In this document: positions 5,142 to 10,556 of the stretch, in pieces
Layout: the number at the start of each line of letters is the position of its first letter
How positions within the stretch are numbered: the first letter of the stretch is position 1
From: Rhizobiales bacterium GAS188
GTDB lineage: Bacteria > Pseudomonadota > Alphaproteobacteria > Rhizobiales > Beijerinckiaceae
DNA: 64,000 nt
Assembly (NCBI GenBank): GCA_900104855.1
Contig: FNSS01000001.1
Coordinates: 992,001 to 1,056,000 of the forward strand
Direction of reading: 5' to 3'
Program-made: the position numbers and the translations under genes
The notes under the pieces: model-generated
Databases searched by the model: none
The model's input: only the letters and a program-made list of their open reading frames with translations
Told to the model about the DNA's origin: nothing

Positions 5142-6044
5142 ATGACGAGGACCAGTATGTTGAGGACAGCCAGAGCGGGCCGAATTGCGGCGCTTTCGGG
5201 TCTTTCGAGCGCGCTCGCTTCGGGCACGGCCTTCGCCGAGGCGATCGGACAGCCAAGGCCCTGGCAAACTGGCCTGCAGCCGCAGGTGACCGAAATCGGC
5301 CACATGGTCGACGATCTGCACAATATCTTGCTCGTCATCATCACGGTGATCACGGTCTTCGTGCTCGCTCTCTTGCTCTATGTGCTGATTCGCTTCAGCG
5401 AGAAGCGCAACCCCACGCCCTCGAGAACCACCCATCACACCGTGCTCGAGGTCGCCTGGACCATCCTTCCGGTGATGATCCTGGTCGGCATCGCCGTGCC
5501 CTCCTTCAAGCTCCTGAAGTTCGAGCTCGTGCCGCCGACCGCCGACATCGTCATGAAGGCGACCGGCTCGCAATGGCTGTGGGTCTATGACTACCCGCAG
5601 GACCAGGGCGGCGGCTTCAGCATCACCTCGAAGATGCTGGACGAGAAGCAGCGGGCCGAGCTGCTGGCCAAGGGCACCTCGGCGGAGGATGCGCCGCGCC
5701 TGCTCGCGGTCGACAATGAGGTGGTGCTGCCGGTCGGCAAGATCGTCAAGGTCGAGATCACCTCGACCGACGTAATGCACGGCTTCAACCTGCCGGCCTT
5801 CGGCGTGAAGGTGAACGCCATCCCGGGTCGCAACAACGAAGTCTGGTTCAAGGTCGACAAGGAAGGCCTCTATTACGGCCAGTGCACCGTGGTCTGCGGC
5901 GATCAGCATTCCGAGATGCCGCTCGCCTTTCGCATCGTCTCGCCCGAGCGCTATGCCGATTGGCTGAAGGAGGCGAAGGTCAAATACGCCTCTACCAGCC
6001 CCTCGGCCGCGCGCGTGGCCGATGCCAACCCCGTCCAGCCCTGA
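5142..6044 (+). CDS. coxB: Cytochrome c oxidase subunit II with atypical Mg-site residues
   Basis: CuA-carrying subunit of an aa3-type cytochrome c oxidase. A signal peptide is followed by two transmembrane helices (about residues 55-80 and 100-125) and a periplasmic cupredoxin domain. The CuA ligands are all present: His213, Cys248, Cys252, His256 and Met259 (block GQCTVVCGDQHSEMP). The aromatic electron-entry region reads GSQWLWVYDYP. Oddly, the residue between the cysteines that is normally Glu (bovine Glu198, a Mg/Mn ligand) is Val250, and bovine Asp173 corresponds to Asn225. There is also an insertion of roughly 15-20 residues near residues 160-185 compared with typical rhizobial CoxB. 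It is the first gene of the cox operon. Confidence 0.95.
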   Translation: MTRTSMLRTARAGRIAALSGLSSALASGTAFAEAIGQPRPWQTGLQPQVTEIGHMVDDLHNILLVIITVITVFVLALLLYVLIRFSEKRNPTPSRTTHHTVLEVAWTILPVMILVGIAVPSFKLLKFELVPPTADIVMKATGSQWLWVYDYPQDQGGGFSITSKMLDEKQRAELLAKGTSAEDAPRLLAVDNEVVLPVGKIVKVEITSTDVMHGFNLPAFGVKVNAIPGRNNEVWFKVDKEGLYYGQCTVVCGDQHSEMPLAFRIVSPERYADWLKEAKVKYASTSPSAARVADANPVQP

Positions 6045-6051
6045 ACCCTCG

Positions 6052-6119
6052 AGTCTATCCTAGACCCAAGTCTACCCCAGACCTCAAGTCGACCTGAACT
6101 CTAAGTCTGCGCAGACAAG
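6052..6119 (+). repeat. Degenerate 17-18-bp tandem repeat (x4) in the coxB-coxA spacer
   Basis: Four successive units each begin AGTC; the first two (AGTCTATCCTAGACCCA, AGTCTACCCCAGACCTCA) are closest. Each of these carries a small inverted AGTCT/AGAC pair, so the RNA could form several alternative short hairpins between the first two oxidase genes. No coding function is visible. Confidence 0.65.
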
Positions 6120-6140
6120 ATCAGCTGAAGGAACCCCGCA

Positions 6141-7781
6141 ATGGCTTACGGCGCAGCTCTTGACCCCCATGCCGAGCATCCGATCGCGGACAGCCACGCC
6201 GCGCATCCGACCGGCCTGCGGCGTTGGCTGTTCTCGACGAACCACAAGGATATCGGCACGCTCTATCTCGCCTTGTCGATCGTCGGCATGCTGGTCGGGG
6301 GCACCTTCTCGGTCCTGATGCGGATCAACCTGCAATCGCCGGGGCATCATCTGTTCTCGGACGGGCAGATGTACAATGTGATCGTCACCGGCCATGGCCT
6401 GATCATGGTGTTCTTCGTGATCATGCCGGCCCTCATCGGCGGCCTCGGCAACTGGTTCGTGCCCTTGATGATCGGCGCGCCGGACATGGCCTTCCCGCGC
6501 ATGAACAACATCTCCTTCTGGCTGACGGCCGCCGCCATGTGCCTCCTGCTGCTCTCGACGCAGATGGAGGGCGCGCCCGGCGCCAACGGGGTCGGTGCGG
6601 GCTGGACGCTCTATGCACCCTTCTCGACCCTCGGCCATCCGGGCGCAGCGGTCGATTTCGGCATCCTGGCGCTGCACACCGCAGGCGCGGGCTCGATCCT
6701 CGGCGCCATCAACTTCATCACCACCATCCTCAACATGCGGGCGCCGGGCATGACCTTGCACCGCATGCCGCTATTCGTCTGGTCCGAGCTGGTGACGGCC
6801 TTCCTGCTGCTGTTGTCGCTGCCGGTGCTCGCCGGCGCCGTCACCATGCTGCTCACCGACCGCAATTTCGGCACGACCTTCTATGATCCGGCCGGCGGCG
6901 GCGACCCGATCCTCTACCAGCACCTGTTCTGGTTCTTCGGCCATCCCGAAGTCTACATCATGATCCTGCCGGCCTTCGGCGTCGTCAGCCAGGTGATCTC
7001 GACCTTCTCCAAGAAGCCGATCTTCGGCTATCTCGGCATGGCCTATGCGATGGTGGCGATCGGCGTGATCGGCTTCGTGGTCTGGGCCCATCACATGTTC
7101 ACGGCCGGGCTGTCGCTCGACACGCAGCGCTACTTCACGGCCGCCACCATGGTGATCGCGGTGCCGACCGGGGTGAAGATCTTCTCCTGGATCGCCACGA
7201 TGTGGGGCGGCTCGATCCGCCTCGGCGCGCCGATGCTGTGGGCGATCGGCTTCCTGTTCCTGTTCACGGTCGGCGGCGTGACGGGTGTCGTGCTCGCCAA
7301 TGCCGGCGTCGATCACGAGCTGCACAACACCTATTACGTGGTGGCCCATTTCCACTACGTGCTGTCGCTCGGCGCCGTGTTCGGCATCCTGTGCGGCTGG
7401 TACTACTGGTTCCCAAAGATGACCGGCTATGTGATCCCCGAATGGATCGGCAAGACGCATTTCTGGATCGCCTTCATCGGCTCGAACGTGACCTTCTTCC
7501 CGATGCATTTCCTTGGGCTGGCCGGAATGCCGCGCCATTATTTCGACTATCCGGACGCCTATGCGCCTTGGCACTTCATCGCCTCTTGCGGCTCCTACAT
7601 CTTCGCGGCCGGCATGATCTTCTTCATCTGGGCCAATATCTACTGCTATTTCGTGCGCAAGGAGCCGGCCAGCAACAACCCATGGGGGCCGAGCGCGACC
7701 ACGCTCGAATGGACCTTGTCGTCGCCGCCGCCCTTCCACCAATACGAGGTGCTGCCCCGCATCACGGGCGGCGATCACTAA
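6141..7781 (+). CDS. coxA: Cytochrome c oxidase subunit I (aa3-type), altered Mg/propionate residues
   Basis: Catalytic subunit reducing O2 at the heme a3-CuB centre and pumping protons. It is 546 aa with about 12 helices. Type A1 landmarks are present: [16 protein letters not shown] (D-pathway entry), GHPEVY (CuB His, pumping Glu, cross-linked Tyr), WAHHMF (two CuB His), PTGVKIFSW (K-pathway Lys) and VAHFHYVLS (His403 for heme a3, His405 for heme a). Two positions are unusual. His395-Asn396 replaces the His-Asp pair whose Asp binds Mg in the bovine enzyme, and Arg465-His466 replaces the Arg-Arg pair at the heme propionates. The gene has an AAGGAA-type ribosome site and lies 96 bp after coxB. 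Confidence 0.97.
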
Positions 7782-7830
7782 GACGAGCGGGCGGTGGGCA
7801 AGCTCTGCCGCGCCGGCCGAAGTAAGGACC

Positions 7831-7884
7831 ATGGACGAGACACGACACATCATGCGCGAGCTGCTCGAAGGGGGAGTGCGATGA
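7831..7884 (+). CDS. Candidate 17-aa leader ORF translationally coupled to ctaB
   Basis: Short frame [17 protein letters not shown] with its own ribosome site (AAGGA, 3 nt before the ATG). Its TGA overlaps the ctaB ATG as ATGA. The ctaB ribosome site GGGGGAG lies inside its last codons. It resembles a coupling leader rather than a structural protein: charged, no membrane segment. I know of no named counterpart; it could be chance in GC-rich DNA. Confidence 0.35.
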
Positions 7885-8885
7885 GCCTCGCCAGCGAGCC
7901 TCACCTCACGAGCGCGCGGGCCGGCATCTCGCTGGCCTCGCCGGGCGATTACTTCGCCCTGCTCAAGCCGCGCGTCATGTCGCTCGTCGTCTTCACGGCG
8001 CTGACCGGGTTGATGCTCGCGCCCTCCCATCCACATCCGGTGATCGGCTTCATCTCGATCCTCGCCATCGCGGTCGGAGCGGGCGCGGCCGGCTGTCTCA
8101 ACATGTGGTGGGACGCCGATATCGACATCCTGATGAGCCGCACCCGCAACCGCCCCATCCCGGCCGGCCGCGTCAAGCCCAAGGAGGCGCTGGGCTTCGG
8201 CCTCGTGATGTCGGCAGGCTCGGTGATCGTGCTCGGCCTTGCGGCGAACTGGCTCGCCGCCGCGCTGCTCGCCTTCACCATCTTCTTCTACATCGTGGTC
8301 TATTCGATGTGGCTGAAGCGCTCGACGCCGCAGAACATCGTGATCGGAGGAGCCGCGGGCGCCTTGCCGCCGATGATCGGCTTCGCGGCCGCAACCGGCA
8401 CCGTAACGCTGGAATCGGCCCTGCTCTTCGCCATCATCTTCTTGTGGACGCCCCCGCATAGCTGGGCGCTCGCCTTGTTCCGCTCGGACGATTATGCGCG
8501 CGCCAAGGTGCCGATGCTGCCGGTCGTGGCCGGACGGGACGCCACACGCACCCAGATCCTCGCCTACACGCTGGTGCTGGTGCCGGTCGGGCTGCTCCCG
8601 GCGCTGCTTGGCTTCGCCGGCCCCGCCTATGGGCTCGCTGCCCTGCTCACCGGAGCCGGCATGATCTTCCTCGCCTTCAAGCTCTACCGCCAGCGCGACG
8701 ACCAGGCGGCGGACACGAAGGCGACCGGCAGGAAAGCGACCTGTACGAAAGCGACTTGCACGAAAGCGACAGATTTGGCAGCCAAGAAGCTGTTCGCCTT
8801 CTCGATCCTTTATCTGACCATCTTGTTCGGCGTGCTGCTCGCCGAGCGCGTCGTGGCCCTCATCCTGTCGCAGGTGGCGGCGTGA
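7881..8885 (+). CDS. ctaB: Protoheme IX farnesyltransferase (heme O synthase)
   Basis: Inner-membrane UbiA-family enzyme that farnesylates heme b to heme O, the first step to heme A of the oxidase. Family motifs are present: [19 protein letters not shown] (first Asp-rich motif), the cytoplasmic loop [17 protein letters not shown], and [13 protein letters not shown] at 7881 is chosen because GGGGGAG lies 4 nt upstream and the protein then begins just before the first conserved block; a longer frame from 7794 lacks family similarity. Residues 279-298 are four tandem five-residue repeats ([20 protein letters not shown]) from 15-bp DNA repeats, in a loop before the last helix, which is not usual. 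Its 3' end overlaps the coxF start. Confidence 0.95.
8715..8774 (+). repeat. In-frame 15-bp tandem repeat (x4) inside ctaB
   Basis: Four units around the consensus ACGAAAGCGACNNGN. The third and fourth are closest. They encode a K-A-T-rich, Cys-containing loop that enlarges the last cytoplasmic or periplasmic loop of CtaB without breaking frame. Confidence 0.8.
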
Positions 8886-9046
8886 CGGGCGAGATCAAGG
8901 ACGGTGTGGTCTTGAGCGCCGAGGAGAAGCGCCGTCGCCGTCAGCGCTCGGTGGCCCTGGCGCTCGTGCTCGGTGCGGTCGTGCTGCTGTTCTACGCCAT
9001 CACCATCGTCAAACAGGGCGCGGCGCTGAACGCGCTGCATTCATGA
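8882..9046 (+). CDS. coxF: CoxF-like small membrane protein of the cox operon
   Basis: Protein of 54 aa from GTG at 8882, overlapping the ctaB stop (GTGA) and ending on the ctaG start (ATGA). It has a charged N-terminus ([10 protein letters not shown]) and one transmembrane helix ([20 protein letters not shown]). This size, position and layout match the small CoxF protein found between ctaB and ctaG in rhizobial cox operons, thought to act in oxidase assembly. An upstream in-frame ATG at 8756 would lie inside ctaB and is rejected. Confidence 0.8.
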
Positions 9047-9672
9047 CGATCATGGGCGGCGACACCCCCTCCCCGAATCGGCAAGCGCCGGTCTCGCGCG
9101 GCTCGCGCCGCACCGCCGTGGTGGCGGCGCTGGTTCCGGCCCTCATGCTCGGCGCCTCCTTCGCGGCGGTGCCCGCTTACCGCATCTTCTGCCAGGCGAC
9201 CGGCTTTGCCGGCACCCCGCTCATCGCCACCCAGGCGCCAACCCACAGCCTCGGCCAGATGATGGTGGTGCGCTTCGATGCCAATGTGGCGCCGGGCCTC
9301 GCCTGGAACTTCGCGCCCGAGGCCCCCTTCGTGCATCTGCGTCTCGGCGAGACGAAGACGGTCGAGTTCCGCGTCACCAATGACAGCGACCGGCCGGCCG
9401 CTGCGGTCGCTGCCTTCAACATCCAGCCCGATCTCGCGGCCCAGTATTTCAACAAGCTGAGTTGCTTCTGTTTCGACGAGACCGTGCTGAAGCCGCATGA
9501 GACGCGCGACCTGCCTGTCGTTTTCTTCGTCGATCCGGCGCTTGCCAAGGACAAGGACATCAGGTCATTGACCTCGCTCACCTTGTCCTACACATTTTTT
9601 GCGTCCAAGACCGGCAAGTCGCAAATAACCACACCCCAAGCCGCGACCGCTTCCGAGACGCGCGTCAACTAG
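9043..9672 (+). CDS. ctaG: Cytochrome c oxidase assembly protein CtaG (Cox11 family)
   Basis: Copper chaperone that loads CuB into subunit I. A single N-terminal membrane anchor (about residues 25-47) precedes a periplasmic domain. The Cox11 landmarks are all there: VPAYRIFCQATGF directly after the anchor, FNIQPDLAAQYFNKLSCFCFDE with the copper-binding CFCF pair, and a C-terminal DPALAKD followed by LTLSYTFF. At 209 aa it is full length. It is coupled to coxF by ATGA overlap and lies 20 bp before coxC. Confidence 0.96.
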   Translation: MTIMGGDTPSPNRQAPVSRGSRRTAVVAALVPALMLGASFAAVPAYRIFCQATGFAGTPLIATQAPTHSLGQMMVVRFDANVAPGLAWNFAPEAPFVHLRLGETKTVEFRVTNDSDRPAAAVAAFNIQPDLAAQYFNKLSCFCFDETVLKPHETRDLPVVFFVDPALAKDKDIRSLTSLTLSYTFFASKTGKSQITTPQAATASETRVN

Positions 9673-9692: not shown

Positions 9693-10556
9693 ATGGCCGA
9701 CGCCCACGCCAAACACCACGACTATCACCTCGTCGATCCGAGCCCCTGGCCGCTGGTCGGCGCGGTCTCGGTCTTCTTCGGCGCCGCGGGCGCCATCATG
9801 TGGATGAAGAGCCTCACCATCGGCGGCCTGCATTGCGGCCCCTATATCGCGGGTGCGGCGCTGATCGGCATCTTCTACACGATGGTCGCCTGGTGGTCGG
9901 ACGTGATCCACGAGGCGCAAGATCTGCATCTGCATACGCGCGTCGTGCAACTGCATCACCGCTACGGCATGATGATGTTCATCGCCTCCGAGGTGATGTT
10001 CTTCGTCGCCTGGTTCTGGGCCTTCTTCGACGCCAGTCTCTATTCGGGCGAGGAGATCAACTATGCGCGCGCGGCCTTCACGGGCGGCGTCTGGCCGCCC
10101 AAGGGCGTCGAGCCTTTCGATCCCTGGCATCTGCCGCTCCTGAACACGCTGATCCTGCTCACCTCCGGCACCACCGTCACCTGGGCGCATCACGCGCTGC
10201 TGCACGGGGACCGCAAGGGCCTGAAGGCCGGGCTGTGGCTGACCATCCTTCTCGGCGCGACCTTCACCTGCGTGCAGGCCTATGAGTACAGCCACGCCGA
10301 ATTCGGCTTCAAGGGCTCGATCTACGGCGCCACCTTCTTCATGGCGACCGGCTTCCACGGTTTCCATGTGCTGATCGGCACCATCTTCCTGATCGTGTGC
10401 CTGTTGCGCGCCTATCGCGGGGATTTCACGCCCAAGCAGCATCTCGGCTTCGAATTTGCCGCCTGGTACTGGCATTTCGTCGACGTCGTGTGGCTGTTCC
10501 TGTTCTCCGCGATCTATGTCTGGGGAACTGGCGGCGGCGCCGTGCATGGCGGATAA
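9693..10556 (+). CDS. coxC: Cytochrome c oxidase subunit III
   Basis: Seven-helix subunit that stabilises subunit I proton uptake. Typical features over 287 aa: HDYHLVDPSPWPL at the start, GMMMFIASEVMFFVAWFWAFF with the conserved helix-III Glu, WPPKG, TSGTTVTWAHHALLHGD and the C-terminal HFVDVVWLFLF. A GAGAGAG ribosome site precedes the ATG. Its last 11 bp overlap the SURF1 gene. Unlike subunits I and II, nothing unusual was noticed here. Confidence 0.97.
   Translation: MADAHAKHHDYHLVDPSPWPLVGAVSVFFGAAGAIMWMKSLTIGGLHCGPYIAGAALIGIFYTMVAWWSDVIHEAQDLHLHTRVVQLHHRYGMMMFIASEVMFFVAWFWAFFDASLYSGEEINYARAAFTGGVWPPKGVEPFDPWHLPLLNTLILLTSGTTVTWAHHALLHGDRKGLKAGLWLTILLGATFTCVQAYEYSHAEFGFKGSIYGATFFMATGFHGFHVLIGTIFLIVCLLRAYRGDFTPKQHLGFEFAAWYWHFVDVVWLFLFSAIYVWGTGGGAVHGG

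Follow-up and report, generated by a model that had tools for sequence, protein, structure and literature searches.

Joint substitution of Mg/Mn-site residues in subunits I and II of an alphaproteobacterial A1-type aa3 cytochrome oxidase

Does an aa3-type cytochrome c oxidase need the Mg/Mn ion at the interface of its subunits I and II? This question is raised by the cox gene cluster of Rhizobiales bacterium GAS188, located in a 64,000-nucleotide stretch of its genome (the window), for which an initial annotation had reported that four residues around the non-redox metal site of the bovine and Rhodobacter enzymes are replaced together in CoxI and CoxII. A passage of PMC5495810 states that the Mg ion is present in all aa3-type oxidases, and among the open-licence papers that were searched we found no report of natural aa3 oxidases that are without the Mg ligands. 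In addition, the words magnesium, Mg2+, E254 and Glu198 do not appear in a survey of alphaproteobacterial oxygen reductases (PMC6431628). In our assessment, the window probably encodes a working A1-type aa3 oxidase that has given up the Mg/Mn site between CoxI and CoxII, with a rebuilt, metal-free contact between the two subunits.

The cox cluster and its four substitutions

The cluster in the window comprises coxB, coxA, ctaB, a cox11-type gene and coxC, and the position of assembly genes next to coxB and coxA was counted in favor of a working enzyme. Its genes are as follows.

5142..6044, + strand: coxB, cytochrome c oxidase subunit II with CuA motif (NCBIfam TIGR02866, 178.1 bits, cut-off 147.7; CuA ligands kept)
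6141..7781, + strand: coxA, cytochrome c oxidase subunit I, A1 type (NCBIfam TIGR02891, 696.4 bits, cut-off 670.75; D- and K-path residues present)
7794..8885, + strand: ctaB, heme o synthase (NCBIfam TIGR01473, 322.2 bits, cut-off 210.3; open reading frame as listed; a start further inside the frame is possible)
9043..9672, + strand: cox11-type cytochrome c oxidase assembly protein (NCBIfam NF003465, 192.4 bits, cut-off 162)
9693..10556, + strand: coxC, subunit III (four NCBIfam matches, all to subunit III models and each under its cut-off)

Two COX1 and two COX2 matches are present in the source genome (9.09 Mb, 3 contigs). The second oxidase gene pair, near 5.065 Mb (G000:C1 5064823-5067514; L002 468-3159), is of a different kind, so that no A1-type CuA oxidase other than that of coxB and coxA of the window was found in the genome. 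The subunit I of that second oxidase has Ser-Ala at the positions of the Mg-site His-Asp.

The translated CoxA and CoxB were aligned to the solved Paracoccus and Rhodobacter PDB chains and were also placed in a multiple alignment with the Rhodobacter chains, in which the reference has D/R/D/E where the window has N/H/N/V. States are written hereafter in the order CoxI 369, CoxI 439, CoxII 173 and CoxII 198 (bovine numbering), the canonical state being DRDE and that of the window NHNV. The four substitutions and the retained His beside them are located as follows.

5814..5816, + strand: CoxII N225 (bovine D173), codon AAC, from the alignments
5889..5891, + strand: CoxII V250 (bovine E198, an Mg ligand), codon GTG; the other three genomes of the genus have Gln
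7323..7325, + strand: CoxI H395 (bovine H368), the one protein Mg ligand retained
7326..7328, + strand: CoxI N396 (bovine D369), codon AAC, from the alignments
7536..7538, + strand: CoxI H466 (bovine R439), codon CAT, from the alignments

As had been claimed at the outset, there is no indel between the landmarks, the alignments to the Paracoccus and Rhodobacter chains being ungapped from CoxII H213 to M259 and from CoxI 369 to 439. Sequencing error is unlikely because N/H/N recurs in the three other genomes of the genus, where 198 is Gln. Misalignment or sequencing error as the source of the four differences was rejected on the basis of these congeners and of the ungapped alignment around the sites to solved chains; no point in its support was found, and we give it a negligible probability.

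The initial annotation had also held that the CuA, heme and CuB ligands, the D- and K-path residues and the cross-linked Tyr are all kept, and the alignments bear this out. CoxII retains the CuA ligands H213, C248, C252, H256 and M259, and in an 11-row CoxI alignment H85, H268, Y272, H317, H318, H403 and H405 are invariant, as are the D-path Asp D115, the helix-VI Glu E270 and the K-path Lys K346. Compared to the A1-type aa3 oxidases of Paracoccus, Rhodobacter and bovine heart, the window enzyme has the same CuA, heme and CuB ligands, D and K paths and Tyr, all features of an A1-type aa3, as well as the equivalents of H368, D364 and R438 in CoxI, but it is without D369, E198, D173 and R439. 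It is not a B-family enzyme, since the A-family D-path Glu that is missing from B-family ba3 is kept as E270 in the motif HPEVY.

The protein ligands of the bovine Mg site, which we take to be H368, D369 and E198, are a usual feature of A1-type aa3 oxidases that, to our knowledge, is not used in defining the family. In the window this set is broken, with the His kept, D369 replaced by Asn and E198 by Val, and because two of the three protein ligands are gone, loss of the Mg2+/Mn2+ site is predicted to be the likeliest consequence of the substitutions. Point mutants of the Mg/Mn site of Rhodobacter are laboratory changes of single residues at these positions; the window has changes at the same residues, but there the four have been replaced together by evolution.

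The four positions are listed in one exit-side water cluster in a table of PMC12901375, and sections of PMC12901375 and PMC10598403 describe R438 as the arginine that is salt-bridged to the heme a3 propionate. The propionate-arginine cluster that had been reported as lost is therefore changed by half: R439 has become His, but R438 is kept, and it shows zero changes on our 231-row tree. A section of PMC10598403 places the main chain of bovine R438 on the path from CuA to heme a. Since R438 and the CuA ligands are kept, the earlier suggestion of a rebuilt electron-transfer route from CuA to heme a is not supported, whereas the rebuilt exit-side network of water and protons that it had offered as the alternative is a plausible candidate. 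The same section assigns Mg binding to the carboxylate of bovine Glu198 and CuA binding to its backbone carbonyl. Such a backbone contact would need no particular side chain, so that CuA could survive the change of E198.

Distribution of the four-residue states

A sample of 100 near genomes, among them that of the window, yielded 96 loci in which the four positions were read. Non-canonical states were found in 42 of the 53 readable main-copy loci of the window's family (20 ERDK, 8 NHDR, 5 NHDL, 3 NHNQ, 1 NHNV, 2 AHDF, 2 DRDN and 1 GRDE, next to 11 DRDE), a count that leaves out L128 (NRYQ; G024 has it as a second copy) and L129 (RRDS, of a distant type) and that becomes 44 of 55 with both. Four more loci of the family are without residues at one or more of the positions. 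In GTDB terms the family is probably Beijerinckiaceae: on the tree it encloses a Methylocystis locus and one with Beijerinckiaceae in its title, and Rhizobiales bacterium TNE-4 (identical locus, state NHDR) is a member. Methylocystis sp. H62 has the state ERDF.

Whether the pattern might be common to the whole order had been raised in the initial annotation as a point against its reading. The near genomes gave 36 readable loci from families of the order other than the window's, of which 35 have DRDE and one has ERDE, and this rules out an order-wide pattern for this sample. Further samples of the order outside the window's family contained changed loci, mostly at one residue: DRDQ in Pseudolabrys and Mesorhizobium, ERDE in Nitrobacter, and DRDQ, ERDE and DHDQ in an additional set of 36 loci (several from genomes already read) that was kept off the tree.

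Several of the sampled loci have features of their own. Gln368 and Glu369 occur together with a retained E198 in L083 (the same gene as L306), L161, L231 and L304, Nitrobacter winogradskyi being among them. The DHDQ locus, L312, has one in-frame TAA in its coxA frame according to the match table. For three coxA genes on Microvirga and Bradyrhizobium plasmids (L332, L333 and L337), coxB was neither annotated nor found within 2 kb on either side, and such an orphan subunit I would have to borrow a subunit II.

A larger set was assembled by adding 80 named loci and 81 loci from the class, the latter drawn from 93 genomes with a match after the weakest matches and two genomes already read were left out. 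The resulting 257 loci included 2 duplicates, and 24 of the other 255 are without one or more of the four residues, leaving 231 that are readable; for the tree, L047 (gap at 439) was kept in and L252 (readable, short) was left out. The readable rows comprise 160 with DRDE and 71 with other states. Changed rows outside the window's family are NRYQ (11; Acetobacteraceae, SAR116 and others), DRDQ (4), ERDE (3), NHTQ (2, one of which is Reyranella), GRDE (1), and ARTE, DRLK, DRNK and NRHQ (once each). ERDK is present in 16 of the 41 sampled genera, and the full replacement, NHN(Q/V), was found only in the window's genus, in 4 of the 4 genomes examined.

Co-change across the subunits

Using a tree of CoxI plus CoxII minus the four columns, we counted for each CoxI-CoxII pair the branches on which both columns change. 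Positions 369 and 198 shared 10 branches compared to 1.07 expected, which ranked third of 81,543 pairs (and second of 82,128 on a FastTree tree). The best CoxI partner of CoxII 198 is 369 and the second is 439, and for CoxI 369 the best CoxII partner is 198 and the best partner inside CoxI is 439. The scans thus uphold the proposal that the change is coordinated across the two subunits, and they make independent drift of the sites unlikely. After removal of the family-labelled rows (by group labels, so that L131 and L158, named rows inside the family on the tree, remained), 369 and 198 still shared 3 branches compared to 0.44 expected (rank 143 of 77,520), and therefore their link is not private to the window's family. 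In the same reduced set 439 changes once and shares no branch with 198 (rank 42,232), and so the link to 439 rests on the window's family.

Tests on independent pairs agree in direction, although with few pairs they are weak evidence. For 369 (acid lost) versus 198, 5.4 pairs were the same, 0.1 opposite and 3.5 without difference (n = 9, median p 0.0625); for 173 versus 198 the values were 6.2, 0 and 1.8 (n = 8, median p 0.031), and 439 versus 198 gave only 3 pairs. All 21 rows with His439 in the 255-locus set are without an acid at both 369 and 198, and the one exception seen, L312 of the 36-locus sample, combines His439 and Gln198 with a kept Asp369. Strict charge neutrality was considered as a rule and rejected, as only 35 of the 71 non-canonical rows have no net charge over the four residues; charge balance across them is only a tendency.

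The co-change is explained equally well by functional adaptation and by neutral epistatic drift, in which the residues must match physically while the metal site and its replacements are functionally equivalent and pumping is unchanged. Drift of this kind, which agrees with our preferred explanation on the loss of the metal and differs from it on function, is a real if minority possibility. It is favored by the several end states that are tolerated within the window's family, and by the His439 state of that family requiring three changes on the best tree, though a single clade was not rejected (p-AU 0.096) and consequently we do not claim independent origins within the family. The stability of states such as ERDK across many genera argues for maintained function, yet this is not an argument against neutrality.

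Other positions move with the site. In a scan of columns that are at least 93% conserved in canonical rows, few differed by state. In all 20 ERDK rows CoxII 171 is Arg instead of Lys and CoxI T156 is replaced by Val; all 12 NRYQ rows have Gln at CoxII 171. T156 corresponds to bovine T127 by motif (two before a conserved Tyr) and not by a fixed offset; T127 belongs to the water cluster, and Rhodobacter and Paracoccus already have Val there. Two further positions were located in the window.

7572..7574, + strand: CoxI H478 (bovine position 451); all 11 family rows that combine His439 with a neutral residue at 198 have His here
5913..5915, + strand: CoxII E258 (bovine position 206), between the CuA ligands H256 and M259, from column comparison

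CoxI 451 is Asn in 8 of 8 rows with Arg198 and in both NHTQ rows outside the window's family. Glu at the CoxII 206 equivalent was found in 4 of 4 rows of the genus, in 0 of 160 canonical rows and in 1 of 26 minor-state rows.

Fate of the metal and function of the enzyme

The genus has gained D254 and E258 beside CuA, and acids are present at the CoxII 202 and 206 equivalents in 4 of its 4 genomes. With the H368 equivalent kept, a weak or water-rich metal site is possible, and with the acids gained beside CuA, a shifted one. Potentially, Mg or Mn is still bound by H395 together with waters, backbone atoms and the new carboxylates (E258 and D254). We regard this as unlikely, since both other protein ligands are gone, the Lys or Arg at the E198 position of ERDK and NHDR enzymes should repel a cation, and E258 is absent from the sister states, in which an acid at 202 is rare (1 of 20 ERDK).

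We also sought, and rejected, the gain of a CoxI carboxylate beside the old site: the scan, for which an acid had to be present in at least three of the four genus rows and in under 25% of canonical rows, found only E216, which lies in a membrane helix, and the C-terminal D545. E216 (window 6786-6788, bovine position 189) is present in all 4 genomes of the genus and in 2 of the 159 canonical rows.

If protein has taken the place of the metal, as we favor, the replacement would differ between states. In ERDK enzymes, Lys198 facing Glu369 would supply a positive charge in place of the metal, and in NHDR enzymes CoxII Arg198 may do so with Asn369 and His439, Arg439 being lost. For the window's genus, the stand-in would be a neutral network, Asn/His/Asn/(Gln or Val). 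D364, H368, R438 and the propionates would be expected to keep the exit-side water cluster in place, in which case the enzyme should go on reducing oxygen and pumping protons. Pumping thus plausibly continues in the window enzyme, perhaps with an altered proton affinity at the loading site, for which His403 of Paracoccus (bovine 368) is named as one candidate in a part of PMC7435947.

A precedent for the absence of Mg exists in ba3 oxidases, as a portion of PMC12901375 describes the Mg-containing water cluster as a store of pumped protons and ba3 as forming its cluster without Mg, while a portion of PMC5495810 suggests that the absence of Mg from ba3 may bear on pumping efficiency. At the 369 and 198 positions ba3 has N377 and Q151 (table of PMC12901375) and it has no Mg (excerpt of PMC5495810); the window likewise has non-acidic residues at both, and its three congeners resemble the B-family ba3 of Thermus thermophilus in having Asn and Gln there. 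The Thermus enzyme differs in keeping R450 and in putting Glu126 of subunit II in the position of the metal (same excerpt), where the window has His and Asn, respectively.

In comparisons of the window with its three congeners, dN/dS was 0.07-0.09 for coxA and 0.22-0.25 for coxB, showing that both genes are under purifying selection. Between the congeners coxB dN/dS was 0.08-0.10, below that of the window lineage, and so some relaxation is possible. In addition, the branch to the genus is long (0.73 and 0.88 changes per column). The coxB ratio and the long branch are what would be expected of a degenerate or poorly coupled enzyme in a genus that is losing constraint, a possibility that we consider very unlikely as the redox ligands and the D- and K-path residues are retained, dN/dS is well below 1, and the genome has just one COX1 match besides the window coxA, and that one is of a different kind.

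Our results raise the tentative possibility, to which we give not quite an even chance, that one alphaproteobacterial family has exchanged the structural Mg2+ of aa3 for protein (an ammonium or guanidinium group at CoxII 198 in many of its genera, and a network of neutral His and Asn side chains in the genus of the window) while still pumping one proton per electron. If true, an ion that is described as present in all aa3 oxidases and has been proposed to tune the proton-loading site would be dispensable, and the role of Mg would be readable from natural swaps. A1 enzymes that have D and K paths yet are apparently without the metal would separate these two variables, and the graded states of a single family (Glu/Lys, Asn/His/Arg and neutral) would provide a test of the role of the ion beyond that offered by laboratory mutants.
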